Source: Tetrahymena thermophila SB210
Lineage: Eukaryota > Ciliophora > Oligohymenophorea > Hymenostomatida > Tetrahymenidae
Assembly (NCBI RefSeq): GCF_000189635.1
Contig: NW_002476241.1
Location: 1-64,000, forward strand
Reading direction: 5' to 3'
Length of the DNA stretch: 64,000 bases
Below the pieces are notes generated by a model. It saw nothing but the letters and a program-made list of their open reading frames with translations, did no database searches and had not been told where the DNA came from. Positions 14,896-52,774 of the stretch are shown piece by piece. The position numbers and the translations under genes were made by a program. Each line of letters starts with the position of its first letter. The stretch's first letter is position 1.

Positions 14896-17800
14896 TCAAT
14901 TATCATTAATTTATATTTTAAAATTCGATAGATTAAATAGAATTTATTATTTATAGTTTCTAGTTCTTTTGCTTTTGGATTATAGATTTTGGTTTGATGC
15001 AACTTCAATAGGTATCTAGGAAGCGTTTTATATTGATGGAGAAGGATATTCTGTTAGTTTATCTATACTAAAATTTCTTTTCTTTCTTTGGGTAGTTAAA
15101 GGAGTACTAAAGACAGTATTTCCATCAGCCACTTTATTCAAAGCTTCTTAAGAAATAATATTTTTTAAATTTAAATCACTCACTTACTTAGCCATTTTAG
15201 ATTCAAGTGCAATTGATTACGCAAGTCTTTTTTGGGTTAAGGATATATCTTTTAAGCTGGTAGAAGGAATAACTTTTGATCTTTGTCTCTAAGTTAATAT
15301 TTTTTTAATCTTTGCTGAAATTGTTACTCCGATTTTGAAAAATAAATATAGTAGCTCTAAAAATATGATAAATATATATGAGAATATAATAATCCAAGAA
15401 AAACTAAGTCTATTATCTTCACTCATTAAAGATTCATTAATTAAGAAATAAAATAAGGATATAATAAAAGAAAATATTATTTCTACAAAAACATTCTTAT
15501 TATTTTAAAATTTATTTTTTATTGGTTTTTTAAGAATCAAATATCCAAGAACTAATAAGCTAGAAAGCAGAATCATAGTCAACTATATGTATTAATAATC
15601 TGTAAACACAACTATAGCAAAGCAAAACGTAAATCTTCTTATATTAAGTAATAAGTGAAACTCAGGATATAAACTTTCTTGGCAGATTACTTCAACTAAT
15701 TCTGCACATTTATTCTTTTTAAAAAGAATATAAGCAATGAATGGAGTAGGAATTATGCTCAAAAAAGATAATATATGGAAGATATTGTTTGTAGTAAAAA
15801 GGCAGTTATCATATGATATTTTGGTAAATTAAAGTATCGATGATAAAGATATTTAAACAAAAATAACTTATATAAGTTCCAGATAAGTGCTTGATTTGAG
15901 TTTTAAAAGAAATTTTTCTAAAAGATTTTTTACAGTAGATTATTTTCTATTTTATAAAAAAAATCTATAGAAACTCAAAACCAAAATATGAAAAAAAGCT
16001 ATTAATGATATTAAGAAAATAAGTTATCCTTTTATTTAAAAAAAAAATATTTATTATTTAAATTATTTTTTATTTAATATGATTTAAGTTTTAAATAAAT
16101 TAATAAATAAATACCTGAGTTTTATATAAAGAGTGCTGTTTGTTTTTTAGTTATAAATATGTCAAATGAGTCTAAGAAAGGAAGTTTTCCAAATACAAAA
16201 ATAAATGGGTTTGGAATAAAACCCATTTAGAGAGAGTTAAAGGAATCCAAAAATATTTATAAATTATATGGTTTTCTAATAATAAATAAAAATTATCAAT
16301 GATTTTATAAAATTAAATGTGAAAATTTACAGGATGTTTAAAAATGTTAATAAATAGAAAAGCTCTGACAGATCAACCAATGATGAAAGTAATGGTTAGT
16401 AAGCTGTGAAAATAAGAAATAAAGAGCTAATTATGATTGACTATGAAACAGTTTAGCCTGTAGAATGAGCTAGGTCAGTTGTTTTCTTAGCATTTTCACT
16501 TATTTGATAGCTAAATTAAACTGTAATGCTGTCTGAAATTAAATCACCACTGACTTAAGATGTATTGTTTTAGACAGCCTATACAATTAGCTTTAGATTT
16601 GTAGGAGGATTATTTTTAAAGTTGAAAAATGCTGAGTATGAATCGTTATTAATCTTCGTTAATGTAACATTAGAAGGTATATTTGGCTAAAGCTAATAAG
16701 AAAATGTTATATTTTGATTTTATTTAATTTCTGTATCAAACCCGTTAGATAAGAAAATTATTACAGTATTCTATTATTAATTGTTTTAAGTCAACTTTAA
16801 TTTTTTTTATTCTTAACAAATATTTTAGTAATTTTATGTGCCTGGTGGACAACTTATTACACACTAGTTTTTGTAAATAATTTAGCTACTTGGGCAAACT
16901 AACGGAACGCATTACGTTCCTTAAGAATTAAGAATTTCAGTCGAAGAACATTATAATTAGCATTAATTTTAAATTAGTTTAAAAGAATTAGAGCATTCTA
17001 CGCATTGATCAAGACTATACTTAACACAATTACTTATACTTAATTAGACACATGTTCCATTAAATTTAATAAAACCATCAGGACAGTTATATAAACATTT
17101 TTGAGAATATAAATTAAAACCATTAATACAAGTACTACATACAGTCTCAGAAAGACAGATACTACATCCATTTATAAGTTTATCACACCTTTAGCAAATT
17201 TAAATACTATTTTAAGTCACTCCAAGATATCCATCTGAGCATTAAGAAACACATTTTTGATCTAATAAGTAAAAATTACTCTTACATTGTTTGCATATAT
17301 TTCTATCATCTTAACAATTAGCACATTCATTTTGTATGCACATAAAGCAAATACTTTTATTTGAATCTAAATAATATCTTTAATTTAAAAAAATATTTTA
17401 AAAGATATTTAAAATAAAATAAATTATAATTTTGATTATTTTTTGAAATAATAGAAATTACCCTTTATTTATACAATCAGAATTAGATATACAAGTTTAT
17501 GAATTATTGCCAAGATTTTATAACACAGAAAAACCAAGCGAGCATTAAGCACAGTCAAATTATTGAGTGCATTATTTGCAATTTTATTAGCACTCATTAC
17601 ATGTCTAATTTTGAGGATAGTATCCTATAGGGCAGTCTTTTAAACACTATCCATTATTTTAAGAATTAAGAGGCTATAAGTTATACCCAAGATCGCAAAA
17701 TTAGCATTTATCTAATTAAGAATTTTAACAAGTATTACAATTAGATACTTAACATGATTTTTATTCACATACCTTTGCTAATTAATTTGTATTATATTCA

Positions 17801-19918
17801 GAAGGGCAAGATAATACACAGCTTTAATTACTTAATAGGTAAGTATTTTAGTTACATTTAGAGCAAGTGTTAGAGTTGCTGCATGTCAAGCAGTTTTAAG
17901 GACAATTTGAGCACATTTATTTTTATATGTTGGAAAAATAACCATCTGGACATTTGTCAACACAACTTGAGTTATTTAATAAGAAGTAAGAATTTTTACA
18001 TATATTACAAGTATTAATATCAGTACATTAATCACAATTCTGTAAGCAACTTTTGCATGTTTAGCTTGTTATATCAGCATAGAAACCATTTGAGCATCTT
18101 TAAGAGCAAAGTTAGGTCTAAAAATCAAAAAAGTATCCTTGACTGCACTTTGAGCAATCTTTGGAGGAAGAGCATTAATCACAATTTTACTTGCATTATG
18201 AACACGATTTTGGGTTTTATAACTCATAATACCCTAGAGGACAATTTTATAAGCATGTATTTTACCCTAATTAAAAGGAATTAGGTTAACAAATAAAGCA
18301 CTGGTTATTTGAACTCCCAAAACAACTTATACAATTTAAATGACATTACTAGCATTTTTAAATTGTTTCATCATAATATTACTAATTTTAACATTTATAG
18401 ACGCATTATCCATTTATATTGTTATATCCAGAAATGCACAGCTGACAACTATTTAAAAATAAACCATCACACTATTGACAATTATTTTGACAACTAATTA
18501 AAGTATTTTCTTATTTATCACAGAAATACCAATTATATGTATTGTTAATTTTCGGACCACACAATTATTATTTGTTAGATTATTCATTCGAAAAAACAAC
18601 ACATTTTTAATTTATTTATAATAGGCAGTTAGCATCATTTTATTAACATTTTTATGAATTTTAATCATAAAAGTATCCTTTTTTATCAATTTTAATAAAA
18701 TAAAATTCATTTTAAGCACCAAAAAACAAAATTTTTAAATAAATTAAGAAAAAAACTAGAAGTTTAAAATTAACAAAATTTAATTTACCAAATGGACAAT
18801 CTTAGTTAGAAGATGCGCAATTTCCATCAGCTAAATTATATCCTTATTTACATGATGAACAAATATTGTTTTTCAAAGATTAGCAATTGCTTTTAGATGA
18901 ATCAAAAGCAATACAACTATTGAATATTTGATTATAAATCTACAGAGGTTAATTACATTAATTTTTTTATATAGAGCATTCAAATTAATCATTTAATAAT
19001 AAATTTCCTTTGCAAGAAAGACACTAATTTTAATCAGGTCCAAAGCAAGTTTGGCAATCTTAATAACACGAAGAACAATTTCCTTAGTCATTAATATATT
19101 TACCATCCCCGCATTAAGTTATGCACTAGTTACCCAATTTAAGAAGATTTCTTGGCAGGCATTTTGTACATTCGTTGCTATTTGAACACTCAGCACAACC
19201 TGGTAGACATTCTTGAATAATTATTTGAGCAGATTTAATTGCAATATTATTAGGTGAACTTATCATATTAGTTATTGAAAGTACCTTTAAATTATTAAAT
19301 GGTATTTAACCTTTAATTTCTAAAAGAATTTATTTATAAAAATCTTACCAGTAAATTAGAAGTATCTGAGTGTGATAGATCTATATTAAGAAAATACTGT
19401 TTTTCTATTAATTAATCCCCACAAAAATCTAAATTAGAATCTGATATATTGATATTAGACTCTTGAAAAACTAAAGAATTAGGTATGATATTATTAGCAT
19501 TTATTTAAAGATTTTTTAAAGATAAATTTTTATCATCAAGGCTTATAATTAAAAAGGAGATCCTTACTCTGTAATGAGGATCTGCAATTAAAAGACTATT
19601 TTTATATGTTTAACCTTGAGTGATCAAGAGATCATTAAAATTATAACTCGGCTATTTTAAACATTATATAATACAATTATCCACAACATATTTAGAAGAA
19701 ATACTATCAAATATTGTTTATTGCCCTTATCCATCCTACTAACTCACAAAGTCAGAGCATTTACTTTTTTATATGTTTGTAAATCTAAATGGAGTGGATA
19801 ATTCTATAACAAATAAAATAATTTATCTTTATTAAATTAAATAAAATTATTTACATTAAGCTGAAGCATATTAGATTATAAATATTAAGTACAAGACTTT
19901 TGTAAATGTTAGTATCAT
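14896..19918 (-). CDS. Furin-like Cys-rich, multi-pass membrane protein
   Basis: The start at 19918 gives the signal peptide MILTFTKVLYLIFIIQYASA. A 51 bp intron (19804-19854) then joins exon 1 to a Cys-poor N-terminal domain. From about 19.2 to 16.9 kb there are many furin-like/GFR-type repeats (CLPGCAECSNSNECTKC, CLSC, NCPDGFIKFNGTC) spaced as CxxC...CxxxC. The C-terminal third has several hydrophobic helices: DLSELFYLLTFLNIL, FIPNPF, then HLLLNIRRFTFCFAIVVF and GYLILKKP. The protein ends in a polar tail at TGA 14896-14898. Further introns sit near 16.1 and 16.3 kb. I estimate about 1,500 residues. The helical block resembles that of other ciliate Cys-rich membrane proteins, and the gene is oriented like its giant neighbour. 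A surface or secretory-pathway protein is inferred; the ligand and function are unknown. Confidence 0.78.
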
Positions 19919-35086: not shown

Positions 35087-36287
35087 TATGTAATTTTTTT
35101 TCGCTAATTTATATTGATAATTTAAATTTTTATATCTGATAGTAATTTCATCAGAAAATTAAAACAATATTTTGAGGGAATATGTTGAGTTTATTAGATT
35201 AATTTAAAATTAGTAAAGAATCTAATTAAATTTTATAAAAATATTTTTAATCTTATTATAAATATTTGTTTTAATTTTTTCTCTGTATATCATAAAACAT
35301 TTAATTTATAAATCTAAAAGTAGAAAGTATTCTAATTAAAAAAAGAAGAAAATACTTATTTCTTAAAAAAACAAAAAAATATAAAATTTAAATTTATTTA
35401 ATAAAAAAAGGAATGCAAATATAATGAATTATATCTTAAATTATTTCTAAAGCTTCTTGTAAATATCAATAATATCAACTTATTTGTTTCTTAAAAAGGA
35501 ATTGCTTTCTTAAATTATTATTTATAAGAAATATATCAAAGTAATTTATTCTAATAATTCTTACTTAATTTTTTCTTTTAAATATTTATTTTTAACATAT
35601 TAAAAAATTAAATGCTTGTTTTTATTTTTTTTATGAAGAAGACGAAGAATTAAAATATTTTCATAATATCCAAAATTTAATAGTCATAGCACTTATATAA
35701 AAAATTCATTTCTATCAGTTAATTCTTCAGCATCAAACTTATTTATTAGAATTTTAATCAATTGTTTTTAATTATTATCAAAATAATTAAAGTCTTTTTA
35801 AAATCAAATGAACCTAATTGTTTATCTTAATAACAAATTAATGTTTATTACTATGTAAAACTATCTAAATTCGCTAAAATATTTTTAGAGTTTTATTTAT
35901 AAATAATATTTAAAATATAAATAATTTATGAATTAATTTTTTTGCTAAAATTAAGCTGTGCTTTATTATATTTAAAAAATTTAACTTAAAATAAAATATC
36001 AAACTCTAAAAAATAGAAAATTATAAATTAATTTTTATTATAAATTATTAACATAAGTATTTGCTTAATCTATTTATTAAATTAATTAAGTTTATTTTTT
36101 ATTATTTTATAATATTGATTAATTGATTTTTATGATAACCAATTAATTATCCTGTAAATAAATAATTTTTTTACAAGATGGTTTAAAAAATTCATAAAAC
36201 AATAGATTGATTGATACATAAAAATTTATTTAATCTACAAAAAATTTTAATGAAATTGATTAAATAAATATTCTATTTATATTAAGA
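35087..36287. other. Intergenic A/T-rich region
   Basis: This 1.2 kb lies between two minus-strand genes and should hold the promoter of the B-box gene and the 3' region of the next. Only A/T-rich sequence is seen, with no clear repeat, reading frame or RNA gene. Confidence 0.6.
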
Positions 36288-37034
36288 TCAACTTTATGTG
36301 ATATTTAATTATGAGAGGTCAATTTATATTTCGAATTATAATCTGTTCATTTCATCGTGGAGAGAATTCTCATTTTTCATAAACGATAAATTATTAAAGT
36401 CAAAATAGTTATTCCACTCTTCTAAATTGTTTTAGTTTTAATTTTAATTTACATCACCTATAGCTCCAACTAAAGAAATAGAAGAAAGAATGAAACTTTC
36501 ATCTAAATCATCTGGTTATAATACTTGATTAGTAGTACTTTGTTGATCTGCATTTATTTCTTCGTCTAATATCGTATCTTGTTCTTCAATATTTTTATAA
36601 ATTTCAGAATTTTATTACACGAAATTTTAATTGTTTTCTTTAGTGATTTACAAAATATTTTCCGTTTAAAGTTACTTATACTATTGTTATTGATATAAAT
36701 CTTGTGGATAGTATTATTATTAGATCTGGTTTTCTTAATATGTTTGATAGCAAAACTCATTTTACATTTATTGTGCTTAGTTACCAACCATGTTATCATA
36801 ATAAATTTGGAAAAGATTCTGTAAAGATATAAAGCAAATATTGTTTTGAATCAAGTTTTAACAAAATAAATTATAGGTTTCACATCGTTTGCAGTAGTTA
36901 ATATTCTAAGTTTTCAGTACGTAATCACATACAACATTTATTTTCCTTGAAAAGCAAATGTAGCATTAGAAGTGAATTTAATCGCACATGCAACATTTTA
37001 CTCTCCTAAACTATATTATCTCTTCTTCTTCCAT
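36288..37034 (-). CDS. Small Cys-cluster, Gln/Asn-rich protein
   Basis: An intronless 249-codon frame encodes 248 residues, beginning MEEEEIIQFRRVKCCMC. Residues about 14-65 hold paired cysteines (CCMC, CYIC, VVCDY, YCKRC, FC) plus a His, consistent with a small zinc-binding domain of RING- or LIM-like type. It does not match a canonical consensus. A long Gln/Asn-rich stretch follows (about residues 85-150, most Gln codons being TAA or TAG), then an acidic tail with EEQDTILDEEINADQQSTTN and DDLDESFILSSIS. The start at 37034 is the first ATG of a frame that closes at TGA 36288-36290. Function unknown; a regulatory or RNA/DNA-associated role is only a guess from composition. Confidence 0.68.
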
Positions 37035-37764
37035 TTATATAATCTATTCCTCTTTTTCTAAAAAATTTTTTTTACTTACCTCTTTTTAAAATTAGAATTT
37101 AAATTTTCTTTTTAATATTTATTACAAAATAAATAAATAGCAAGCTAAATCTTTTAAAATTATTAAAAAAAATCCAATATATCTTATTAGAATTTTATCA
37201 CATTTCTGAACTAAATTTTATAATATTTTCTTAACTAAATTTTATTATTTACTAAATTTAATAAAATTTAGCTAAATCATGTGTTTATAATCCATATTTG
37301 TCATTCATCAAAAGCTTATGTAAAACTATTGGTAGCGTAATTATTAAAAGCACCTTATTAGCTTCATTATAAATTGATTTACTTTTACTTTCGATTTAAA
37401 AATATATAGGTGGCTAATAATTTTCTAAGATAAATATTTTACAATTTCATTTTGAATTTAAAATGAATTTAAGCATGGGATTTAAATAATTAATTAATAA
37501 AACATTATTAAAAATACAACTTATAATTTTAATATACATTTTTAACTTTTAATATAAGATTTCTGGAGTCATTTTTATATAGAAAATTAGAAGTTCTTTT
37601 ATAATTTAACAGATTTAAGGAGTTTGTGTCTACAATAAATTTTTTAATAAATTAACATATAGCTTGGCTAACAATAGATACATTTTATATAAAAATAAAT
37701 TAATTAAATAAAAAATTAGAGCGAAATTCAGTATAAAAACAATTTATCAATTAGATACTAAAAA
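37035..37764. other. Divergent intergenic promoter region
   Basis: About 0.73 kb of A/T-rich DNA separates the divergent Cys-cluster and ubiquitin-like genes. It holds both promoters. I see no other element. Confidence 0.6.
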
Positions 37765-38013
37765 ATGGATGTAATGATAAGATTACTAACCTAAAGAATA
37801 ATAATTTTTAAAGTAGAATATAGTCTTGATACCATTCTGACAATTAAAGAAAAAATCTTTGAAAAAGAAGGAATAAACCCTAGCTAATAGGTGTTAGTTT
37901 ATAGAAATCAAATTTTATAAAACGAAAGAACTCTAAGTTCATATAATTTTAATCGGGAAGCATACTTATATTTGGTTTAAAGAGGATAACTTTTAAATAA
38001 ATAATCAACTTGA
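37765..38013 (+). CDS. Divergent stand-alone ubiquitin-like protein lacking Gly-Gly
   Basis: A single frame of 83 codons encodes 82 residues covering a whole ubiquitin fold. MDVMIRLLTQRIIIFKVEYS aligns with strands 1-2. TILTIKEKIFEKEGINPSQQ aligns with helix 1 and the following turn, including the KEGIxPxQQ motif. VLVYRNQILQNERTLSSYNF and REAYLYLVQRG cover the rest. The C-terminus continues as QLLNKQST, with no Gly-Gly at the position used for conjugation. Lys48 and Lys63 equivalents are not conserved, and identity to ubiquitin is low. It therefore looks like a type of UBL that binds partners but is not attached to substrates. Its length and intact frame argue against a pseudogene. Confidence 0.82.
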
Positions 38014-40291
38014 ATATTCATTTATTCATACTTTTAAATTTTTAAAACTTGTATTATAAATTAAAATCTTTGTTTTATTTATTAATTTGTTTAGATTTAA
38101 TTATAATTTATTCATCAAATTTTTATTTAAAAATAATTATAATCAAATAATTTTTTTATATGATGTTGATTAAATTAAAATTTATTTATGAGTGATTAAT
38201 TATAAAATAGAGTATATTTTATTTAATAAACAAAGAAATAAAGTAAAATTTAAGTAATAGATTACAATATTATAATATAAATAATTAATAATATTCTAGA
38301 AAAATTTTCTACTACAAAATTACAAATAATTTTTTAAAATTGTTTCTAATTTTAATTATTTATTTAATTTTGTTTTTTGATGACTTAATTTAATTAAAAG
38401 ATATGTTGTTCATTAAATTTATTAATATGTAAATTTAACGATGATTTAAAAATTTACTTAAAATTTGAATATTTAAATTTTAGTTAAGTAATGAAAATTT
38501 GTAAATTTTAACGAATAATTAATTTAGTATAGATCAATTCAATAATTAAATTTAGTTTTTTCACTAGATTATTATATATAATAGATTTTTCAAACCATTA
38601 TGTTAAGAATTTAATTGATATTTTAAATAGAACAATGAAATTAAAATAAAAAATACATTATACTAATTTAATGCATTAATATTTTGTAAAATTAAAAAGT
38701 TAGAAATATTCATCAGTATACCTCCAGTAAGTAAGTATTTGATAAATTTTAAAATGTATGAATTTAAATTTTAAAAAGATATTATGTCAAACAGTACATT
38801 CAAACTTATTGTTGAGTTTGAGAAAACTAAAGACAATAAACTAAACAACTTTTACATTGAAAAAACTTTAAATGTTATAAATATATTAAAATTTATTGCA
38901 CCTAAAATAGTTAGTAGAATTTTCTAAGAATTAGTAGTAAGCTAAAGTCATAATTTTTTATATATTTCAAGCTAGAGTATTTTTATATTTTGATTGATTC
39001 AAAATAAAAGATATGATTTGCGCATTCATAATAAATAAGTATAAATAAATTTTAATTGAATTCTAATATCTAAAATTTATATCTTTAAAGTATACTGCAT
39101 ATATTTATGATACAAAACAAATCTATATCTATTCATATCTAATAATAGAAGCGAAAATTAATTTATACTTATATCAATAAGGCAAATATAAAGCACTAAA
39201 ATTAATGATTAAATTTTTATTTTGAACAAGCAGATTAGAGATTTTAGGTAAATTTATTTGCAGTGGAAACATAAATAAATATTTATATAGAATAATTTTT
39301 CATAGTGAGTTTTATGTTGTGAAATAAAAGTTATGAGAAAGTAGATACAAAAAGTAAGAAACTTTTATATTTTGAAAGTCAATATAACTATTAATTCAAA
39401 GTGATAAGAATTAATTAAGTAATACTAATTTTAAGATTCTTGCTTGAATGAATAAAGATTTTCTTTCTAATTTAAGAAAGAGAGCAGAAAAAGGAAAGAT
39501 AAAAGAAAGATAATAGATAATTAAATCATCACAATAAATTAGAAAAAAAGAAAAAGCATTTAATTAAATTATTTACAATATGAAAAAAGAAATATAATTT
39601 GTATTTGAAAAATATTCTTTTTTTAATTCCTGATAATTTATATACAAAATTTGTCAAAATTTATTGTTTAAAAAATAAAACTTACAAAAATCTATTTGCT
39701 TTTCAACATTTTTCAAATCAGACTTAACCTTGAAATTTATGAAATATCGTTATAAAACTTTTGATGTAGTGGTTGCTGCACATTTATTTTTGTTGATAAA
39801 AACAATTCCCATACAAAAAGTATAATAGAAAATATTTAAAAGACTTGCAAAATAAAAGAAAAAAGGTGGAATTGATATATAATTATAAAATTGATTGACT
39901 GAATTTCTTATTGAATAATCGATTGATTCAATGAATGAATGAATATCATCATCAAAAAAAAAATTAAACAGAAAAATTTTCAATAATTTAGTATTTTGAA
40001 TACTGGAGATATGCTCTGTTTCAATTAAGATAGTCTAGCAACATGAGTGTATTTATTAATGAATGAATGAATTAGCTAATATTTATTATGTTAGTGTGGT
40101 TGATAATTTCATAGAGTTTTGAATAATATTGGGTAAGGAGAAAGATATCTTTTAAAAGTAATAATTTTTTATTTATAAATAAATAAAAAGAAAATAAATC
40201 ATAAAATAAGAAAACCTTAAATAAAAAGATTGAAAAAGGAAAAAGGTTTATTACGATCGTTGTAGAGAAACAATACATAATAAAAAACCAA
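38014..40291. other. Long intergenic region upstream of the giant coiled-coil gene
   Basis: About 2.3 kb of A/T-rich DNA precedes the coiled-coil gene. It contains one short plus-strand reading frame (38784-38993, listed separately), a purine-rich stretch near 39470-39520, and short (TGAA)n runs near 39930 and 40055. The promoter and 5' leader of the downstream gene must lie in its right part. I see no RNA gene. Confidence 0.55.
38784..38993 (+). CDS. Possible short protein of unknown function
   Basis: A 70-codon frame starts MSNSTFKLIVEFEKTKDNKL and ends at TGA 38991-38993. Its composition is more mixed (Val, Glu, Asp, Pro, Gly-poor) than chance frames nearby, and ATG follows a typical A/T-rich leader. 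The first half could form a beta strand pair followed by a helix, but I cannot match it to a family. It lies 770 bp downstream of the ubiquitin-like gene on the same strand. It may be a chance frame. Confidence 0.25.
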
Positions 40292-43200
40292 ATGAATCAA
40301 CAATCATAATTTTTAACTCAGTCTAGGCAAACTCCCACTAGAAGTGTTAATGTTCGTTCTCCTTCAAAAAGTGGAATCAAGTCACCCACTTATCGCGGAG
40401 ACTATGCCTAAACACGCAATTTACCCTCAACTAATCCCATTCGCGCTCCCACTCCAGATTTGATGCCCCGTCATGAACGTATTTCTTCCACTGCTGTTCC
40501 CAACGGGTAATTTAAATTCAATAGTTTTAATTATATTATCAGCATAAAGTTTCAAATTTGCTCACTGAACACTTATTTTCATTCAATCTGCATTTTGCAT
40601 ACATGTCCATAGAAGGTAGTTTCTCTCCATAATATTTATCGATGTGATAGTTTTTCATTTTTTACTATATTTTCTATACTCATTTTTTTTGTTGATGTCT
40701 GATTCTTTTATCAGCATCACATATAAAAAATATTCCAGTGAAACATTATTTTTATAAATCGAGTGCAAAAGTTGAATTTTATAAGGTTGAAGGATAGATA
40801 AGTAGTTAAGTGAAGCTCATTATATAAAATACATATGCCATTACAAACATCGGATCATTTTTTATTAAATTTTTATAAATAGACTTAGATTTACTACAAA
40901 GAAAAAATAAAACCTTTCTGTATCTCCTCAAAGAGGTGGTTTCAGAGACGTTGATGAAATTACTGAGCAATTCAATAGAATCCTTAAAGAAAAGAATGAT
41001 TAGATTGATTAGTTGAAGAGATAACTTAACGACCCTGAAGAAAATGTTAAGAGAGCTGCAAATAGAGGTGGACCAGTAATAAATTTTGCATTATTATTTT
41101 TCTCTACCAAATAGTTTGTTTACAAATATACCAAAAGCTTTTCAAAATTGAAGATTTGCAATTGACATATTAAATAATCAATTATGTCTAAATAAATACT
41201 TCAAAAAGCACAATCATTTTAAATGTTTTTCATTTTTAGAAATTCATAAATTGTGCTTTGTAGCTAGCTTTTGAATATAAAAAATGTTTCAAAACTTTAA
41301 AATCAATCAAACTAATCCATCAACTTTTTTTGAAATAAACTTTTTCTATAAAATAAACAGAGTGAAAACGATGTATCCGAGTTAATTTAGTAGCTCTAAA
41401 ACTTAAATGTTGAATTAACTAAATCCAGATAGAATGAAATTAGACTCAGTGCTATGGTTTAGAACTATGAAAATTAAATCAACAAGTTAAGTGATGCCAA
41501 CTTGAAACTCTCACAAGAATTAAAAGAAGTTGGTGAGTAAAACCAATACCTCGTATCTCAACTTTAAGGCTAAAACCCAGAAAGCGTAAATTATTTATTC
41601 ATTTGTATAAAATATAATAGAATGACTATTATCTTTTAATGTTTGAGTTGCAAAAAAAAAATAAACTGAATGATTGATTAATAATAAAAAATACATGAAA
41701 AAATTTTGAAAAATATCTTTATAAAAGTTATTTTCTATCTTCCCTAATAGAATAATTAATTCGTTTAATTACTCAATTAACTAATTTCTACAGCCAGTAG
41801 GTATAATGATAATACTAACTAATTTATATCAAATAATAATTTTACACAATTAGTCAATTATTAAAAAATCTTTCAAATTAGTTTTACATTTTTCTTTCTA
41901 AATTTTGATAGATAAAACACTTTAAATTACAGAGCAACTTAATAAGTTTATCAATTAAAAAAGAAGAAATAAAAATTCTAATAAAAATTTTTAATTAGAA
42001 GATATTATTGAGTACATACCAATCAATAAATATTAAACAAATTAATTTACTTATTTAATAAAGAGAAAGAAATAGAATTTAGAGTTAATTTAAAAAAATC
42101 AAAATATTATATTAATAAATAAATAAATAAGCAAGCAAAGAGTAAGTTATTAAGTTAGATATTATCTTAGCTAATTTATATAGGAAATAAATAGCTTTAG
42201 CAAATAAAATTATCTTAAAGAAGATGAAATATCATTACAATAAAATAGCAAGAAATTATTCTTTAGAAGCAACAAAAAAATTTAGTTATTATAAAAAAAT
42301 GACTTTTGCATTTAGTTTTTTATGGATCAAATATATTTTTGATTCAACTTGCACCATTTCAACTACTTTTTACATATATCATTCTTAATTTGATTTCATT
42401 TAAAATTAAATTCATTTTTAAATAAATTTAGAGAATCAGAGAAATATAAATCAAGCACGCTGAAGAACTTAATAAATTACACGCCTAATTAAGAGAAGCT
42501 TAATTAAATGCTGAAAGAAACTAAAATGATTAAATCAACTAATTGAGAAAGCAAAATCAAGAATTAGTCAACGAAATCGAAAGATTGACTAGCTTGATCA
42601 AGACTCTCTAGCAAGAATTATCTGCTAAGGGTGATACCACCTAGTTGAATATCATCATTTAGTAGAGAAACTAAGAGTTAGATAATTGGAAGAACAAGTA
42701 CAACCTTCTTGCTGAAGAAAGAGCTAGAATGGAAGAAAAGATTGTTCAAGCCTAAACTGAAATTATGCGTCTTGAAAAGTAAGTTGAAATTTGGAAAGAT
42801 CACTGCAACAAGATTCAATAATCTCATCCTAACTAAGACTAAAGAATGTAAATTAACTTAAAATAAAAACAAATAAAATACTCAATTTAAATTTTTACTA
42901 AAACAGCTAAGAATTACAAAACAAGATTGCTGATTACGAGTCAAAGATCAACTAACTTGCTATCGACAATCAAAGATTAAACTAATTAATCTAGATTAAG
43001 GATGAAGAAGCTGATAAAATCAAAAGAGCTTCCAGACAAAGCAATGTCGATTAACGTACTTATGATTCTCTTTAAAATGAAAATTACTAATTGAAGAACG
43101 ATCTTTCTTCTAAGGAATTATTGATTGTCTAGTTGAATCAAAGAATCAGAGACTTTGAAGGCAACGGTTAGAAGACCACTCAAGAATTAACTCAAAAGAT

Positions 43201-46200
43201 CTTCATTTTAACTAATGAATTAGATAATGTCACTTCCCACTTGAAGGCTCGTAACTAAGAATACGAAGACTTGTCTAAGAGATACAACTAATTACTCTAA
43301 CAAACCAACTAAATGACCCAATCTGGTGAATTCAAATATCAAGAACAACTCAGCAAGTCTATTTAATTAGGTCAAGAAGTTGAAAAATTAGCTGCTCTAA
43401 CCAGAGCTTAAGCTGATGAAATTAAAGACTGGAGAAATAAGTATGCTGATTTGGAATCTAGATACAACTAATAGATCATCCTTATTAGCTAACAAACCAA
43501 CTAGGAAGTTTATAGAAGACAAATCTAAGACTTAGAAGATTAACTTAGAAGAAAGACTGCAGAAGCCAATGAATGGTAATAGAGTTTCACCAATCTCTAG
43601 GCTCAAAAGGAAAGAGAACTCAAGAACCTCATGGAAACCTTGAAAGATGAAATTAGAAAATCAAGCTCTAGCTTAAATCTTTAAAACGACTACAATAAGC
43701 TCAAGGACCAAGTTTGTAAGAAAAAATTTTTATTTGCTAATTTCATTATTAATTTATAAAATTATTAAAAACTAAATAGAATTATTAACCCACTAAATCG
43801 AACAACTCAATAAGATTAGTATCGAAAAGGACAATGAAATTCGTCTTTTGAGAAACTAGGCTGGTAACGATGCTTTATACAGAGAAAAGATTATTAATAT
43901 GGAAAACAAACTTGTTCAACTCACTTCTGAATTATAAAACTAGATCAATTTGAACTAAATCAAGGAAAGTGAAATCGTTTCTTTGAAGCGTTAATTGGAA
44001 GAAGCACGTGGCAGATACAGTGCTGACATTGAAACTTAATTGATTCAACTAAGATCATAAGTTACCACTTTACAACAATTATTACAATAAAAGGATGAAA
44101 TCATTAATGATTTACAAAGAAAGCTTGCTGAGCACGAAGATCCCGTCAAGAGATCCAAGAAAGATAATGAAACTTAAAGATTACTCAACTAGATCCAAGA
44201 ACTTACTTTTGATAACCAAAGATTAACTAAATTGAACAATGAATAAGCAGTTACTATTGACTAACTCAGAAGAGATCTTATCAATTTACAATAACAATCA
44301 TAGAATGTTGTTGAACAAAATAGAAAAATTGAAGCTCTTCTTTATTAGATCGAAGTTCTTGAAAAGTAACTCAGAGCTGTCGCTGAAGAAAGAGACAACC
44401 TTAAGAGATAATTGTTAGAAACCGAAACTCTCAGACAAAAACTCAAGGAATAAGAAGCTCGTGAACTCTACTTGTAAGAATAAATTCGTAATTTGGTTGC
44501 TTAATTAGAAAATGCTTAAACTGAAAATGTCAAGAGAGCAGGAAAGGAAAGCCAAATTAACCAATAACAAGTCCGCATCAACGAATTAGAAAATTTGATT
44601 TAAGTCCTCAGAGGAGAAATCGAAAAGCTTAACAATATTATTCGTATGAAGGATTAAGATTTAGATTCTCTCAAGAGAGAATCTAACAGAAAGAGTGTTG
44701 TTGATGCCGAGAAACAATAGCTCGAAAATAAGATTCTCTTATTAGCTAGTGAAATTGATAGATTATCTAGATCTCTTCAAGACAAGCACGAAGAAGTCAA
44801 TCGTTTGAAATCTATTATTATTGAGAAGGATAGCTAACTCTAGTCTCTTCCTCAATTACAAAGCAGAATTGCTCTCTTGTAAGATGAAAATAATAGATTG
44901 AATGCTCAAATCAAGCTCTTAACTGAAGAAAACATCAGAAAGCTCACTGATGAAAACATTTAACTCCGTTAACGCTTAAATGAAATGGCTGACTTTGAAA
45001 GACAAAAGAATGAACTTGAAAACAAAATTTAATTATTGATTTCCGAACGTGAACGCTTAAATGGTATCATCACCACCATGACTTAAGAAAAGCTTTCCCT
45101 TCAAGCTCAATTGAATGACTATGCTCAAGGTGACCGCATCAGAAAAGAACTTGAATACCAAATCGAATCTTTGAAGAGAGACAAGCAAAGATTAGAAGAA
45201 GGTCTTACTAACTTGGCCAATGAAAACAATGAATTGAGATCTCGTCTTTAACAATTAGGTGATATGGATAGAGTCAGAGGTGAATTAGAAAATAAGATCA
45301 ATCTTTTGATTCAAGAAAATGATAGACTCCGTGCTGCTTTGGCTGCTAAGAATGAAGAAAACACTAAATTAATTTTGAAGATTAACGATTTATCCAACTT
45401 AGAAAAGCTTAGAGCTGATCTTGAAGGAAGAATTAAGATCTACGGAGAAGAAAACCAAAGACTTAATGATATTATCAGACGTTTAACTGAAGATAATACT
45501 AGCTTGTAGACTCGTATTGCTTAATTAAGCAATATCGAACAAGTCCGTATCACTTTAGAAGGCTAGATCAACTTGTTAGTTGCAGAAAATAAGCGTTTGA
45601 ATGATTTAGTCCGTGCTAAGGATGAAGAACTTGTCTAGATTCGTGACATCAAGACTAGATTCGAATTATTCTAATTGAGAAACATCGATGCCTTAGCTAG
45701 ATTGACTATCACTATGGCTGAATTAGAAAGAGTTTCTGCTTAAAGTGTTGAAAAGACTAATAAGATTATTCAATTAGAATAGCGTTTGAGAGACAACACA
45801 TTAGAATATTAAAACCAAGCTTTATAACAAAAGGTTAATCTTTTAACTGAATAAATCGAACGTTTAGTTAGAGAATTAGAAAATGCTCGTAACGAATTAA
45901 TCTAGGTCTCTAGAAAGTGCCAAAGCTTAGAAATCGAAAAGCAAACTTGGGATGCTCAAAGAGCTCAATATGAATAAACAATTGCTTAATTGCATGCTGA
46001 AATTTAACGTTTAAGAGAACAAGCTGATGAAGGTGAAAAAGTCAAGAGAAGTAAACAAAACTAAGATAACAGAGTTGCTCAATTAGAAGCTGAAAATAAG
46101 TATTTATAAGACCAACTTGAAAAGTTAAGAAATGATAACAACCAACTTCTTTAACAAGTCAGCTAACTCACATTAACTCTTCAATAATTACAAGCTAAAT

Positions 46201-49200
46201 TAAATGACAACACTTTATAAATTTAAAACTAAGAACTTCAAAATAGACTCAATGCCAAGACTGCTGAGCTTGAAAGAGTTGCTCAAGAACTCTAACGTCT
46301 TAGCTAATTAATCAATGAATTAACTTTAGAAGTTAACAGACTTAAATCTGAAAATGCTGGATTTGAAGTTACCAAGAGAGCTCTTGAAGGCAGAATCTAA
46401 GAACTCGCTTCTAGATTGGAAATGTTGACTGGTGAAATCAATAGACTTAACTAACTCAATGGTGAATTATCTTACAAGCTTTCTTCTTCTGCCACTATCA
46501 ACGAAAGATATGCTAGACTTTCTGATGCCTATGTCCTCTAATGCGCTTTATCTGAATCATTGTCCAAAAAGGTTTCTGACCTTATTGGTTTCCAAAACGA
46601 AGCAGATGAACATAGAAAGAGAGCTTAACGTCAAAGTTAAGATAACGAAGCTCTTATTCAAAGAATTAACTAACTTGAACAATTATTGGCTGAAAAAGAT
46701 AGAGAATTACAAAACTTAAAGGTAGCCAGCTAAAATGTTAGCATCCTTCAAATGTAACTCCAATAATCTAACCAAGATAAAGAAAATTTAATTAAGAGAA
46801 TCAGAGAATTAGAAAATATTCTTGGAGAAAGGGATAAAGAAATTGCAGGTTTGAGAAATGCAAACAGTTAAGTCAACCTCCTTCAAATTCAAATTTAATA
46901 ATACGAAAACTAAATTAACGACTTGAAGCGCAGACATGCTGATGAACTCGAAAATGTAAAGAGATAATACGAAGGTCTTCGTCAATCTACTGTCAATAGA
47001 GAAATCAATGAGCTCACAGTTAAGTTCAACATTCGTATCCAAGAACTTGAAAGAGAAATCCAAAAATACAAATCTCTCTCAGAATAATATGAAAATGAAT
47101 TACGTGCTCAACGTCAATAAAACTCTGAACTTCTCCAACGTTTGGTTGATGCTGAAAACCGTGCTCGCGATTCTGATGAATAAGTCAAACGCTCTAGAGC
47201 TGGTCAATAATAGGTCAATAATTTGGAAGAAAATCTCAGATTCGTAACTGCTGAATTAGAAAAGTAGAAGAACCTTTTAGCTGAAGAAAAGAATAAGAAT
47301 GCCTAACTTGAAAGTCAAAAATCTATTTTAGCTATGGAAATCGAACGTCTTAACACCATCTTGAAAGAAAAGCTCATTTTAATCGAAGACTTCTAACGTC
47401 GTGAAGCTGAATATGAAAACTAATTGAGAGAATTGCAAGCTAGACTTGCCTCTGTTGCTGAATTAGAAAGCAAACTCCAATTCTTCAACAACTAAATCTA
47501 GACATTGAACTTCAGCTTGGAGTAAAAGGAAAAGGAAAAGCAAGCACTTGGTCAACATTTAGTTGAACTTCAACAAACTATTGAATAATTAAGAGCTGAA
47601 AATACTTAAGTTGCTGCTTTCAAATACTAAGTTGAAAATCTCTCACGTGAAAACGAAGCATTAAAATAACGTCTTGTTGAACAATAACAAACTATCGACA
47701 AGTTAAGAGCTGAAGCTTCATAATTCGCTTCTCTTAAGTTCTAAGCTGAAAACTTATAACGTGAAAATGAAGCTTTGAAACAACGTCTCGTTGAACTCTA
47801 ACAAACTGTTGATAAACTAAGAGCAGAAGCTGCTTAATTCGGAAGTCTTTAATACTAAGTTGAAAATCTCACTCGTGAAAATGAAGCATTAAAGCAACGT
47901 TTGGCCTAAACAGCAGAAACTCTTAGCTAATAAGTAGCTCAAAACAGCGAACTTTAAAGAAGAGTTCAATAACTAGAAAGCGAACTCCAATTACTCAAGA
48001 TGTAATTAGAAGGTGAACGTGAAGATAACAAGGTCAAGAGAAGCAGAAACGATAAGAATAATGAAGATCTCTAAAAGGTCATCCAACAACTCCAATAAGA
48101 AATTGAAAATTTAAGAAGAGAAATTTAAGCTCGTGATTAGAAGATTGCTGAACTCTCAAATGCAAGCTACACCATTCAAATACTCCAACATGAAAAGGAA
48201 GATTTGATCAGAAAGTTAGATGCTATTAGTTAGGTATATGCCAAATCTTAGACTGATCTCTAAAACAGTCTCCAAAAGGTTGTTGTCCTTTCAGCTCGTG
48301 TTGAAAGCTCTGATGAAGCAAACAAGAATCTTACTGCCTAAGTTCAAATTCTTTCTCAATCTTTACAAAATAAGGATTAAGAATTAAGAAACTTGATGAT
48401 TGCTTACTAAGAACTCCAAGTTAAATTTGGTCAAGAATAAGAAAATTCTCGTCGTAGCTCTTCAATGGCTTCTTCCAAGTTCATTCAAGAAAGAGTTTAA
48501 TTGGAAGCTGAAATTAACAGACTTAAAAACGAATTAGCTATCATCGAACACAAGCATAACCTCACAATTGAAGAAATCAAGCGTTAGATGGAAGTATAGC
48601 TTTCTGAAGAACTCAGAAAGTAACTTGCTGCTGCCAAGGCTGAATATGAAAGAAGATTAAACGATGCCCTCAACGCTCAACAACAATAATACGAAGATGA
48701 CCGTGTCAAGAGATCTAAATAACAACAAAAGGAAAATGATGATCTTAAGAACTAACTCTAATGTAAATATTTTTCATAATTTTGACATTTTTTTAAAAGA
48801 TTTTTATTAAATATGACATATTCTTATAATTAATTTAACAAAATATAGTAACTATATAAATGCAACTTGAATAACAACTTGCTGAAGTTAAGGCTAGAAT
48901 GGAAGCTGAAAGAAGAAGACTTGAAGAAGAAAATGCCATGCTCAGAGCCAGAGTTTAATAATTAGAAGACTAATTGTAACATGCTTTGGTTAACGAAGAA
49001 GAAATCTTAAAATTCAAGGACTTGATCCAATAACTTCAAATGCAAAAACTTAAGGATATCTCTGAACTCTAACAAAAATTAGAAGAATACAGAAGCTTAC
49101 ACGTCAATGCTGGTGGTTCTCTTCAAGATGCAATCAAGACATCCTTCCAAACTGAAATTCAATAACTCAGAGACAAGGTCCAATAACTCAACTAGATTCT

Positions 49201-50056
49201 CGAAGTCAAGAGCAAGGAAAATAACGAGCTCTAAAGTGCTAACCTCAACCTCATGAGAGAAAGATCAGAAATAAAGAAATCTATGACATCATCCAACTCT
49301 AACATTCAATTCACCATGGAAATTGAATCTCTCAAGAGATAACTTATTGTAATTTTTAATTATTATTTTTTAGCTTAACTAAAAATATTTAATTTAAATC
49401 TAGCAATCTAATGATAGAACTTAAGAATATGAAGCCAGAATTAAATCTTATGAAGGTAAACTCAATCAATATGAATTACAACTTTCTTAAGTTGTTAATG
49501 AACTCAAGCAAACTCAAGATATCCTCAATATTAAGAAGATGGAAAGAGACAATGCTTTCAATCAAGTAAAAATATAACCAACACGCCATTACTTAGTGTT
49601 AAATTTCTTTTAAATAAATAGATGGATTAACTTAAGAGCTAGACCCTCAGCATGTCACAAGCTTTATCTCAAGGAAGCAACGATGTTGATCTTTAAAATA
49701 TTGTTTTCTTAAAGAAGGAAATTGAGAATTTGTAAAATTTAAAACATTTATTTATCTTTTTAAATAACAAATTAAACTTAAATCAAAAAAGAACTGTTGA
49801 AAAAGAAATGTATAAGTCCTAATCAGAAAAGAACTATGCTGAACTCAATAGAAAGAACGAAGAATTGGTTAGAAAGATTGAAGAATTAAATAACGTCAAG
49901 CTCCAATATCAATAAAATAATAACAAGATCTATGCCCTTGAAAAGGAAGTAATAAATTTACTATTCTTTATTTTGAATAAATTTTAATCATTTTTCATTT
50001 TAAAAAATAAATAGCTTCTCAAAAAACTTGAAACTGAAGAAATCCATATCATGTGA
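40292..50056 (+). CDS. Giant coiled-coil structural protein, 2,603 residues, 11 exons
   Basis: Exons are 40292-40506, 40883-41075, 41361-41585, 42432-42847, 42907-43715, 43780-48762, 48849-49348, 49404-49565, 49622-49731, 49792-49948 and 50015-50056. They sum to 7,812 bases, and every junction keeps frame with GT-AG borders. The first ~95 residues are a non-helical basic head rich in Ser/Thr-Pro (QTPTR, RSPSK, KSPTY, APTPD, SVSPQ), likely phosphorylation sites. The remainder is almost unbroken coiled coil (for example RLEEGLTNLANENNELRSRL). It contains ten (V/I/R)KR(S/A/Q) motifs and three tandem 38-residue repeats near residues 1884-1997. Codons are biased to GAA, AAG, CTC, ATC and TTG, unlike neighbouring genes, suggesting high expression. 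There is no motor, TM or signal sequence. A filament or cortical/basal-body cytoskeletal protein is inferred; I cannot assign a known name. Confidence 0.9.
40507..40882 (+). other. Intron 1 of the coiled-coil gene, with a hairpin
   Basis: This 376 bp intron splits a Gly codon in phase 2. Within it, TGATG and CTGAT (40693-40703, one bulged T) pair with ATCAG and CATCA (40710-40719) to form a ten-pair stem with a six-base loop. Introns of small genes in this window are mostly 50-80 bp, so this one is long enough to host something. I could not confirm C/D or H/ACA box features around the hairpin. Confidence 0.6.
41586..42431 (+). other. Intron 3 of the coiled-coil gene (846 bp)
   Basis: It is defined by exon 3 ending at codon NPES and exon 4 beginning RIREIQIKHAEEL, both in phase 0 with GT and AG borders. 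The sequence is A/T-rich with many TGA codons in all frames. I see no RNA gene or coding exon inside it. It is the longest intron that I can define precisely in this window. Confidence 0.7.
47571..47912 (+). repeat. Three tandem 114 bp (38-residue) repeats inside the coiled coil
   Basis: Copies start at 47571, 47685 and 47799, exactly 114 bp apart. The protein unit begins QQTI(E/D)(Q/K)LRAE and ends ENEALKQRLVE. A fourth copy beginning at 47913 has decayed beyond the first residues. Thirty-eight residues is five heptads plus three, so each copy inserts a stammer in the heptad register. Synonymous changes separate the copies, so they are not recent. Confidence 0.85.
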
Positions 50057-50812
50057 GAAAGTTCAAAGCTCATTTGAGGCAAACACTAAAAACACAAAAA
50101 TACTTTTTTTCAGAATTAAAACTAACTATAAAATTATATATAAAAATATTATAAATAGATATTTCTATGTAAATCATAAAAACATTTTCTACACTTTTTA
50201 TTGTATTCAACAATAGCATTTTAATTTTCCATTTGCAAAATAGTTCTTCAAAGTCTTCTTTTAAAATTTTATTTTTGTATCATATAATTTGTTTTATACA
50301 TATAATATAAATAAACAATTAATTCTAAATAATTAAAAGTTTTCAATAAAAAGATTTTATTAATTTAACAAAAGTAGTTCTAAAATTTATCTTAATTTTT
50401 TAATATAATAAATCTTACAAATATGTACATAAATATTTTCAAATTTTCAGTAAAAAACAAAAATACTTATGTTTTTTAAAATATAATGTCATATTTAGTT
50501 TTAGAAGAAAGATATAAATAAGAGTTAGTATCAGAACATAATTAAAATACAGAGGAATTAATAAAAACAGATCAATTATTGGTTTATCAAAAAAATCTAA
50601 TCATAATAATATAATTAACTAAATAAATTTTAAATTGTATTTTTAGAAATGTAATAAAAATAGTTTTTATTTTTTTGTTGTAATATTTTAAAATTTAGTT
50701 TTTTTTATCATGAAATTAAAAAAAAATTACAAAGAATAAATTTCTATTTTGTGAATTGGTGTGAATTTTATTTATTAATATTCTATCTTAAGTATAAATT
50801 TATAAAATGAAT
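50057..50812. other. Convergent intergenic region
   Basis: About 0.75 kb lies between the stop codons of the coiled-coil gene (+) and BBS8 (-). It is A/T-rich with both 3' untranslated regions. It includes a short plus-strand reading frame at 50486-50713, listed separately. Confidence 0.55.
50486..50713 (+). CDS. Possible short plus-strand protein downstream of the coiled-coil gene
   Basis: A 76-codon frame starts MSYLVLEERYKQELVSEHNQ and has a Glu/Gln/Asn-rich, coiled-coil-like first half of about 38 residues. It then becomes A/T-rich and hydrophobic up to TGA 50711-50713. The protein-like part could instead be an alternative last exon of the upstream coiled-coil gene, or chance sequence in its 3' region. 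I cannot match it to a family. Confidence 0.25.
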
Positions 50813-52774
50813 TCAAAACACTTTTAAAATATCTTCTATTTATTTTTTTAACTTTATTGATTCTTCATGATCTGGATAAATAAATATAGCTTTGTTAACA
50901 AGTTTAAATGCATCTTGGTATTCGCAAGTATTATAAGCCCAGAGAGCAGAGTTAAAGTGAGGTTCGAGTAGCATTTCACCCTCTTTCATAGAAACTTACA
51001 ATTCGTATTTACCTCTTTCAATATTTCCATGCTTTATTTCAATCACACCCAGATTATTATATGCCTCAGCGTGGTGTGGATCAAATTACAAAACCATTTT
51101 TAGACACTGATAAGCCATACCCATTTCTCCCATATATATAAATACCTATAGTAAATATAAATAAATGAAATTTTATTATTATATTCTAAGCAAAATTTAG
51201 TTTGCTAATTATTACATGAGAGATATTGTACCAAATTTCAGCTCTATTTGTTTCATCTGCTAATTAAAGAGCTCTTTCAAAGCAAGGATAAAATAAATCG
51301 TACTATCCATCAAAAAATAAACATAATCCCAAGTTATTCCATAATTCAGCAGTATTAATTCCAAGCTATAATAATCTTTAATAGAAAAGAGTAGACTCTT
51401 CTGGTTGATCAATATAGAATTAATGTGCTGCAATTTAAGCGACTGCTTCCATGTTACTACTTTCAAAAGCTAAAACTTATCTTTTTAACAAATAATTTAT
51501 TAAATATTTATCTACTTGACATCAAAATGCTTTAAGGTTATTTATCAATAAATGTATTTACTTATAAAATTCTACTGCTTTTGTTTACTGGTTTAGCTAG
51601 TCATAGACTCTGGCTATACCTAGCACAAATTAAATTTCATGAGGGTGCTTTTCTAATCCTTTACGATAGCATTCTATAGCAGTGATTGGCTGATCCAATT
51701 TAATATAAACCTTAGCCAACTCAAGTTAAGTTTTAATAATATTTTCATTTTTCAATGAACTTTAAAATTACTTTTCAGCTTCTCTTTATAATCCAAGCTG
51801 TTAAAATGAAATAATTTTAAATTCTGCTAATTGAAAAAATTATTTATTTTACTATATGATAGCATTTGCCAAGTCTTTCTTTCCACCACCAATCTTTATA
51901 TTCAGAAATTTAAGTTGCTTCTGCAGACAATTCCAAAGCTTTTTTAGGGTTTATTTCTACATAAAGTAAATAATTGCAAATAGCCTTAGCAATAGCACCT
52001 TTCTTAGCTATTTTCTTCATATCTAATTTATTGGCATCCAAAAATTAATCGCCTGAAGAAGCCAATGATGCTGTACCTAATCTCATATACCTATTTTTTT
52101 TACTTTATTAAATAAAAAGCTGACTTTTAAAAATATAACCTTCCACCACTAGTAATAGGACGAGTAGTTCCTGGTCTATTACCCTTAAGCGCTGTTTCTA
52201 AACGGTTTTAGCTTGATGAAACAGGTTTGTTAGTTCCTGGTCTAGCAAAACCTGTTATTGGTCTTCCAGATTTAGACATAGGCCTCATTATCTAATTAAA
52301 TATATGTTAGCATAAATTAAAAAGTTTTTACAAGAAACAGCTACTAAATTCATTTCATTAATTTTTTAGAATTTAATTTATTAAATTTTACAGGATTAAT
52401 ATCTCCACCACCTTATCTAGAAGTAATTGGCCTTTAGAATGAAGTACCTGGTCTAGCAAATTACGAAACTGTATTTTCATCCAAAAGAATATCTCCTATT
52501 CCTTCTTCATCTATTTCCAAATCATCTATATAACTTTTACGTACTAAACAGTTGCATTTTAACAGCCATGCAGCCTAATAAATTTTAATAGTTTTTCAAG
52601 ATTATTTCTGATTTTTATTGCATTAATATTTGCAAATTTGAATTCATATTTTTTTTATTTTAAATTACTTACTTAATCTCTTTGATTGTTTTCAAGCATC
52701 TTATCACATAATTACAGCGTCTCATCATATTTACGCCTTTTATATCTACTCATTGCTACAATAAAATTATCCAT
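50813..52774 (-). CDS. BBS8: BBS8/TTC8, subunit of the BBSome
   Basis: This multi-exon gene starts at 52774. Exon 1 encodes MDNFIVAMSRYKRRKYDETL...CDKMLENN and ends at a GTAAGT donor. The next exon gives AAWLLKCNCLVRKSYIDDLE, EEGIGDILLDEN and RPGTSFQRPITSR, closely matching the conserved BBS8 N-terminus, as do SGRPITGFARPGT and RPGTTRPITSGGR. LGTASLASSGDQF and YKDWWWKERLGKCYH are also BBS8 signatures. TPR motifs follow (for example NNLGLCLFFDGQYDLFYPCF, then ERALQLADETNRAEIWYNIS), ending PDHEESIKLKKQIEDILKVF with TGA at 50813. The BBSome moves membrane proteins into and out of cilia, and BBS8 is a TPR subunit of it. Introns of roughly 50-100 bp interrupt the frame. I estimate about 500-550 residues, like BBS8 elsewhere. 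Confidence 0.93.

Follow-up and report, generated by a model that had tools for sequence, protein, structure and literature searches.

A recurrent acidic VKR[SA] peptide in a giant Tetrahymena coiled-coil protein, a candidate short linear motif

The window analyzed here is the first 64,000 nucleotides of contig NW_002476241.1 of Tetrahymena thermophila SB210, and our subject is a short acidic VKR[SA] peptide that recurs along a giant coiled-coil protein encoded on its forward strand. The window is ciliate nuclear DNA with a G+C content of 22.7% in which TAA and TAG are decoded as glutamine: under the standard code, positions 36000-52000 hold no frame of at least 120 residues, and the region reads well once both codons are taken as Gln. 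The giant gene was modeled by eye from the sequence; its introns are GT..AG throughout, the frame is kept and a single TGA ends it. The product is rich in Leu, Gln, Glu, Asn, Arg and Lys (Glu 11.8%, Arg 7.8%, Lys 7.4%), and its hydrophobic residues show heptad periodicity, with autocorrelation peaks at 7, 14, 21 and 28. As a single uninterrupted coil, the rod would measure about 350 nm. Pfam searches at cut-off with exons 1-3, 4 and 6 returned no domains, and no PDB chain matched exons 1-3 (the head plus exons 2 and 3) at an E-value of 0.01 or exon 6 at 1e-5. An earlier sequence-based reading of the window, hereafter the original prediction, listed ten tetrapeptides along this gene as copies of one motif punctuating the rod. 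All ten stand at the coordinates given, read in frame within a single spliced gene, and an Asp or Glu lies within three residues upstream of every one. The gene and the motif copies are as follows (coordinates are those of the tetrapeptide; aa, amino acid).

40292-50056, forward strand: giant coiled-coil gene, 11 exons, ciliate code, 2603 aa
40292-40506, 40883-41075, 41361-41585, 42432-42847, 42907-43715 and 43780-48762, forward strand: exons 1-6 of the giant gene
48849-49348, 49404-49565, 49622-49731, 49792-49948 and 50015-50056, forward strand: exons 7-11 of the giant gene
40292-40506, forward strand: first exon, part of a Ser/Thr-Pro-rich N-terminal head of disordered composition, with five SP/TP within residues 1-100
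41046-41057, forward strand: motif copy EENVKRA, aa 127
43019-43030, forward strand: motif copy ADKIKRA, aa 388
43652-43663, forward strand: weak variant KDEIRKS, aa 599, absent from the original prediction
44145-44156, forward strand: motif copy EDPVKRS, aa 742
44529-44540, forward strand: motif copy TENVKRA, aa 870
46041-46052, forward strand: motif copy GEKVKRS, aa 1374
46614-46625, forward strand: degenerate copy DEHRKRA, aa 1565, within the longest hydrophobe-free run of the protein (20 residues)
46956-46967, forward strand: VKRQ, aa 1679, a non-member in ordinary helix
47184-47195, forward strand: motif copy DEQVKRS, aa 1755
48033-48044, forward strand: motif copy EDNKVKRS, aa 2038, where the helix of a single-sequence model is broken
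48705-48716, forward strand: motif copy DDRVKRS, aa 2262, where the helix of the model is continuous
49271-49282, forward strand: weak variant SEIKKS, aa 2422, absent from the original prediction

The motif is far commoner in the giant protein than in shuffled sequence of equal composition, the comparison proposed with the original prediction. The pattern [VI]KR[SA] occurs eight times, against a mean of 0.17 and a maximum of 3 in composition shuffles (n=1000), the same mean and maximum in shuffles preserving heptad position (n=1000), and a mean of 0.52 and a maximum of 4 in first-order Markov sequences (n=1000). Among tetrapeptides occurring at least four times VKRS was the most enriched (5 observed, 0.03 expected), and when the order of the three core residues was scrambled, VKR gave 8 occurrences and the five other arrangements 0-1 each. 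With the broader pattern [VI][KR][KR][SA], which adds IRKS (aa 599) along with IKKS (aa 2422) and excludes RKRA and VKRQ, all ten occurrences have an acid no more than three residues upstream (mean 0.29, maximum 3 in 2000 shuffles). Across six frames of the 64-kb window, eight of the nine matches to [DE].{1,3}[VI]KR[SA] fall within the giant gene. These results support the motif as a real evolved element.

Nine of the ten listed tetrapeptides share acids followed by V-K-R-[SA] and polar surroundings, RKRA at 46614 being a degenerate copy in the acidic-polar context common to the others. VKRQ at 46956 was excluded; it lacks a polar run and lies opposite EMKSH in the best 30-residue window of a paralog, C39, described below. 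In the five VKRS copies Ser is encoded by TCC, AGT, TCT, AGC and TCT (three TCN and two AGY), which fits selection on the peptide and fits recent DNA copying less well. Exact periodicity of the copies was rejected, the best period having p = 0.45 with all ten listed tetrapeptides, 0.79 with the nine that remain without VKRQ and 0.22 with the eight [VI]KR[SA]. Their spacing is nonetheless somewhat evener than random (coefficient of variation 0.53, p = 0.048 for ten copies; 0.41, p = 0.012 for nine).

The polar stretch that the original prediction described after most of the motifs is present at the nine copies and missing at VKRQ. The nine lie within stretches of 8-20 residues that lack any L, I, V, M, F, Y or W, with a mean of 11.3 residues compared to 4.8 at random Lys/Arg positions (none of 20000 draws was as high), and seven of the 11 hydrophobe-free runs of at least 10 residues in the protein hold or adjoin a motif. 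Breaks in the coiled coil, also proposed to coincide with the motifs, gained no significant support: a COILS-like score, to be taken as approximate, dipped slightly at the motifs without reaching significance (p = 0.24), and predicted shifts of heptad register were not enriched there in a test with self-chosen weights (p 0.18-0.29). A single-sequence AlphaFold2 model of aa 1990-2280 had a mean predicted local distance difference test score of 82 and a predicted template modeling score of 0.37. Its helix is broken exactly at KVKRSR (aa 2037-2042) but runs unbroken through DDRVKRS, and two further breaks, at ESSD and SSSMA, are free of motifs. Given the score, register and model results, the copies are polar windows and not consistently hinges.

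To look beyond the window, the assembly of 101,022,631 bases in 445 contigs was searched with degenerate DNA patterns. The pattern for [DE][DE]xVKR[SA] gave 45 matches compared to 14 for its reversed control; with codons reordered to VRK there were 21 matches (eight of them from one C12 repeat array; reversed 13), and with KVR 13 (reversed 12). The AGY-Ser version gave 8 against 3 for the control, five of the eight in C127, and Ile in place of Val gave 23 against 17 reversed. A one-acid pattern (49 matches, control 15) pointed to further genes. The 53 motif sites from the main and AGY-Ser patterns collapsed to 36 genes or clusters, and 34 control sites (VRK, KVR) to 26. Four of the 36 do not encode the motif, since the degenerate Arg codon admits Ser, and were counted as failures. 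An open polar context, defined as at least 40 open codons on both sides with low hydrophobics, was found at 23 of 36 motif sites and 3 of 26 controls (Fisher p = 6e-5), a contrast favored in part by how the controls were judged; hydrophobic fraction also differed between motif and control sites (Mann-Whitney p = 3e-6). In 27 other distinct copies (polar frames, hydrophobic fraction <=0.36, 25 open codons either side, with two near-identical folded-looking relatives), position +3 is occupied 17 times by Ser and 10 times by Ala, and position +4 is basic in 11 copies.

Four further coiled-coil proteins carry the motif: C127 with eight copies, C220 with five (three reading VKKS), C17:1.587 Mb with two and C39:0.6 Mb with one. 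Others are of disordered composition, disorder having been judged throughout by composition only; C350 has three copies, C377:180 kb two, C114:182 kb two (one of them EEAIKRS) and the remainder one each. EF-hand proteins form a further kind of carrier. At C13 (L014, C13:849000-858500) an EF-hand exon and an adjoining exon both bear the motif, each within a tail of polar residues. When parts of the two were joined as one query, it matched calcyphosin, and the two calcyphosin-like exons probably belong to separate tandem genes. The C259 motif frame had no Pfam match and is followed on the same strand by EF-hand frames, with which it would make up one gene. Pfam searches with six frames holding or adjoining motifs found no domain in five, the exception being two EF-hand frames of L085; of another six, four had no domain and the other two matched EF-hands (L014) and coiled-coil models (L009).

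One small family links several of the carriers of disordered composition. Besides C350 itself, only two places in the genome gave a match to the C-terminal domain of C350: C169 (35% identity, E = 3e-7) and C125 (31%, E = 0.008). Each member of this trio was a carrier previously picked up by the motif pattern, in the contexts EDEKVKRSQL, EIEDSVKRAQL and LEENVKRAQF. The three members (C350, L010; C125, L022; C169, L026) are large proteins of disordered composition whose C-terminal FYDLA..IK..LP..H domain has no Pfam match. A CxxC..H..C finger-like stretch is visible by eye in L022, L026, L086 and L094, and a search from L026 did not confirm that these are related; it recovered C169 and C350 only, and no PDB relative of the stretch was found.

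Searches by tblastn between the rods were uninformative, as many offsets of any rod score, and ungapped 30-residue windows were instead compared with a reversed control. This measure supports true homology of C39 with the giant protein (window score 79, null maximum 54), and homology to C17 (69, null 62), C220 (73, null 65) and C127 (68, null 68) was not clear. The C39 paralog has one motif copy, which gapped alignment places on no motif of the giant protein; the idea that it occupies the place homologous to RKRA was dropped, as the gapped alignment does not support it. At the N-terminus of the C220 rod (L035, about 55.2 kb), a VEVEKPIYIEKIVE stretch resembles alveolin/epiplasmin repeats, and Pfam gave no such match.

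Other features of the window, two of them within the giant gene, are listed below.

47565-47909, forward strand: three diverged tandem 38-aa repeats (aa about 1882-1996) in the giant protein, separate from the motif
44952-45671, forward strand: 45/90-residue internal repeat unit in the giant protein (aa 1011-1250), unrelated to the VKRS motif
50816-51544, reverse strand: TPR protein, convergent neighbor of the giant gene; its best natural PDB match is BBS8/TTC8, a ciliary trafficking protein (E = 2.9e-16 over 110 residues), and an engineered TPR protein scores higher
16165-19623, reverse strand: long open frame that includes a Furin-like, cysteine-rich repeat (Pfam PF15913, E = 1.3e-16)

The giant protein resembles several known rod proteins without joining their families. 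SF-assemblin, of the striated rootlet or kinetodesmal fiber, has a 29-residue repeat made of heptads and a skip residue, and like the giant protein it places a disordered-looking head before a coiled-coil rod. The giant protein differs in its length of 2603 aa and in its autocorrelation, which is -0.117 at 29 and +0.157 at 28. The SF-assemblin family is present in the ciliate Paramecium, and head, rod and domain matches define it (PMC6819543). Those domain matches were not found in the giant protein in the exons tested, and membership was rejected on this ground and on the lack of a 29-residue repeat. Rootletin and the giant centrosomal and rootlet coiled coils share the very long heptad rod; membership there was likewise rejected for want of a Pfam match (exons 1-3, 4 and 6) or PDB similarity (exons 1-3 and exon 6). 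Myosin and intermediate filaments have breaks or skip residues at intervals along the rod, and the giant protein also has interruptions at intervals. In contrast to those breaks, its interruption bears a recurrent peptide found in proteins other than rods as well, and its register shift is not significant.

A closer likeness is to eukaryotic short linear motifs, docking peptides of exposed or disordered segments, which have 3-7 defined positions, one hydrophobic anchor with charges and polar surroundings, and which recur in unrelated proteins with several copies in scaffolds. The V-K-R order, the acids two and three residues before it, the tolerance of Ser or Ala, the lone hydrophobic residue in a polar window and the pairing of many copies in rods with one-copy occurrences in unrelated, compositionally disordered proteins are together the look of a docking peptide. 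We therefore think it rather likely that the peptide is a docking motif for a shared partner, with the consensus [DE][DE]x[VI]K[RK][SA] and EHEDPVKRSKKDN as a representative of its type. Because further rod-like proteins and floppy ones carry it too, the peptide is probably a docking tag common to them all and not a hinge peculiar to the giant rod. As proposed, the ciliate would use one recurring peptide across its proteins as a tag for one common partner; about nine copies would be displayed along the rod, within polar windows that lack core hydrophobics and can expose the lone Val with its basic pair, and the rod would act as a long multivalent scaffold binding the same partner many times. 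Both the binding and the sharing of a single partner among carriers are inferred, and a cytoskeletal or cortical setting is suggested by the coiled-coil and EF-hand carriers. The "regulated docking" raised in the original prediction is the part of that interpretation that fits best. The consensus matches no short linear motif known to us. Among the open-access papers searched, none contained VKRS- or VKRA-type phrases and none combined Tetrahymena with VKRS, even inside a word; in titles and the beginnings of abstracts, the matches listed for linear motifs and Tetrahymena contained nothing alike. Short linear motifs are a known kind of element, of which VKR[SA] appears to be a new one.

Several observations weigh against docking by a shared motif. 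A loose DNA pattern lacking the acids showed no excess (109 matches, control 94); two of its eight loci held the motif, and the C269 cluster it suggested (L013) held none. Leu in place of Val, tested with YTR codons only, gave 24 matches against 9 reversed, a ratio near the 45 to 14 of Val. Because the Leu version exceeds its control, specificity for Val is not claimed; Leu may be tolerated at that position, and Val is favored over Leu and Ile by match count alone. Thirteen of the 36 motif sites failed the context test, some of them in folded-looking frames, and one such failure, L092, resembles a dynein heavy chain by eye. The contrast of 23/36 with 3/26 was itself favored in two ways: controls were judged in 551-base stretches and motif sites in anything from 551 bases to 64 kb, and control sites were fewer, with open frames rarer among them. 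The C127 copies, NDENVKRSKKD, are largely tandem duplicates. C125 is placed in the C350 family at no better than E = 0.008, and when a different, finger-like part of C169 served as query, C350 was found and C125 was not.

The main rival is that the motif and its polar tail are structural punctuation, breaks or soft hinges that segment the rod and set its flexibility or the stagger of filaments. The concentration of hydrophobe-free runs at the motifs (7 of 11; mean 11.3 against 4.8), the modeled break at KVKRSR and the evenness of spacing of the nine copies (p = 0.012) all agree with this. We nevertheless consider it unlikely as the explanation, given the nonsignificant coiled-coil score and register shifts, the continuous helix at the second modeled motif, the motif-free breaks elsewhere in the model and the lack of a period. 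In addition, the motif occurs in rodless proteins of disordered composition, so marking a hinge or a stagger cannot be what it does in general, and the periodic punctuation setting filament stagger that was originally envisaged is not supported by either period or distribution. Docking and hinge can coexist, and a docking peptide that needs an exposed window would explain the polar gaps. Chance in a sequence so rich in Glu, Lys and Arg could draw on that composition, on the flat result of the loose pattern and on the Leu version exceeding its control. It was rejected on the shuffle, Markov and reordered-codon controls, which with the heptad-preserving null argue against it for the motif class taken together; the motif also recurs in one small family (C350/C169/C125), and we regard an accident of composition as very improbable.

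Two other functions may be read from the basic residues; dibasic proteolytic processing, with KR preceding Ser or Ala, was also considered as a possible one. If VKRS were a basophilic kinase site, phosphorylation of its Ser would regulate assembly along the rod, and Ser does follow the basic residues directly in five of the eight core copies of the giant protein and in 17 of 27 elsewhere. Ala takes that place in the remaining three of eight and 10 of 27, so phosphorylation cannot be the common function, and KRS, which the original prediction likened to a basophilic-kinase site, is not supported as a universal kinase site. To our knowledge, the usual basophilic consensus sites call for neither a Val nor acids ahead of the acceptor, which further counts against a kinase; we judge this account improbable, and a subset of copies may be phosphorylated. 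The classical monopartite nuclear import signal has the consensus K-[KR]-x-[KR], and KRx[KR] fits five of the eight copies in the giant protein. Only 11 of the 27 other copies have Lys or Arg at that place, and nuclear signals are not usually used as many copies in one rod; import was rejected on these fits and is given hardly any credence here.

A docking motif would have consequences for how ciliate structures are put together. The ciliate cortex is probably assembled from numerous giant coiled-coil and disordered proteins that lack recognizable domains, and few of their contacts are known to us. It is possible, if doubtful, that [DE][DE]xVK[RK][SA] is a lineage-specific ciliate docking code read by one receptor. 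Such a code would bring giant rods together with EF-hand proteins and disordered scaffolds in a single cytoskeletal structure, and the giant rods would serve as molecular rulers, their number of motif copies fixing the number of receptors bound. A seven-residue motif linking rods, EF-hand proteins and a small uncharacterized family would offer a direct handle on the partner that they share, and scanning the genome for it would yield candidates for membership of that assembly.

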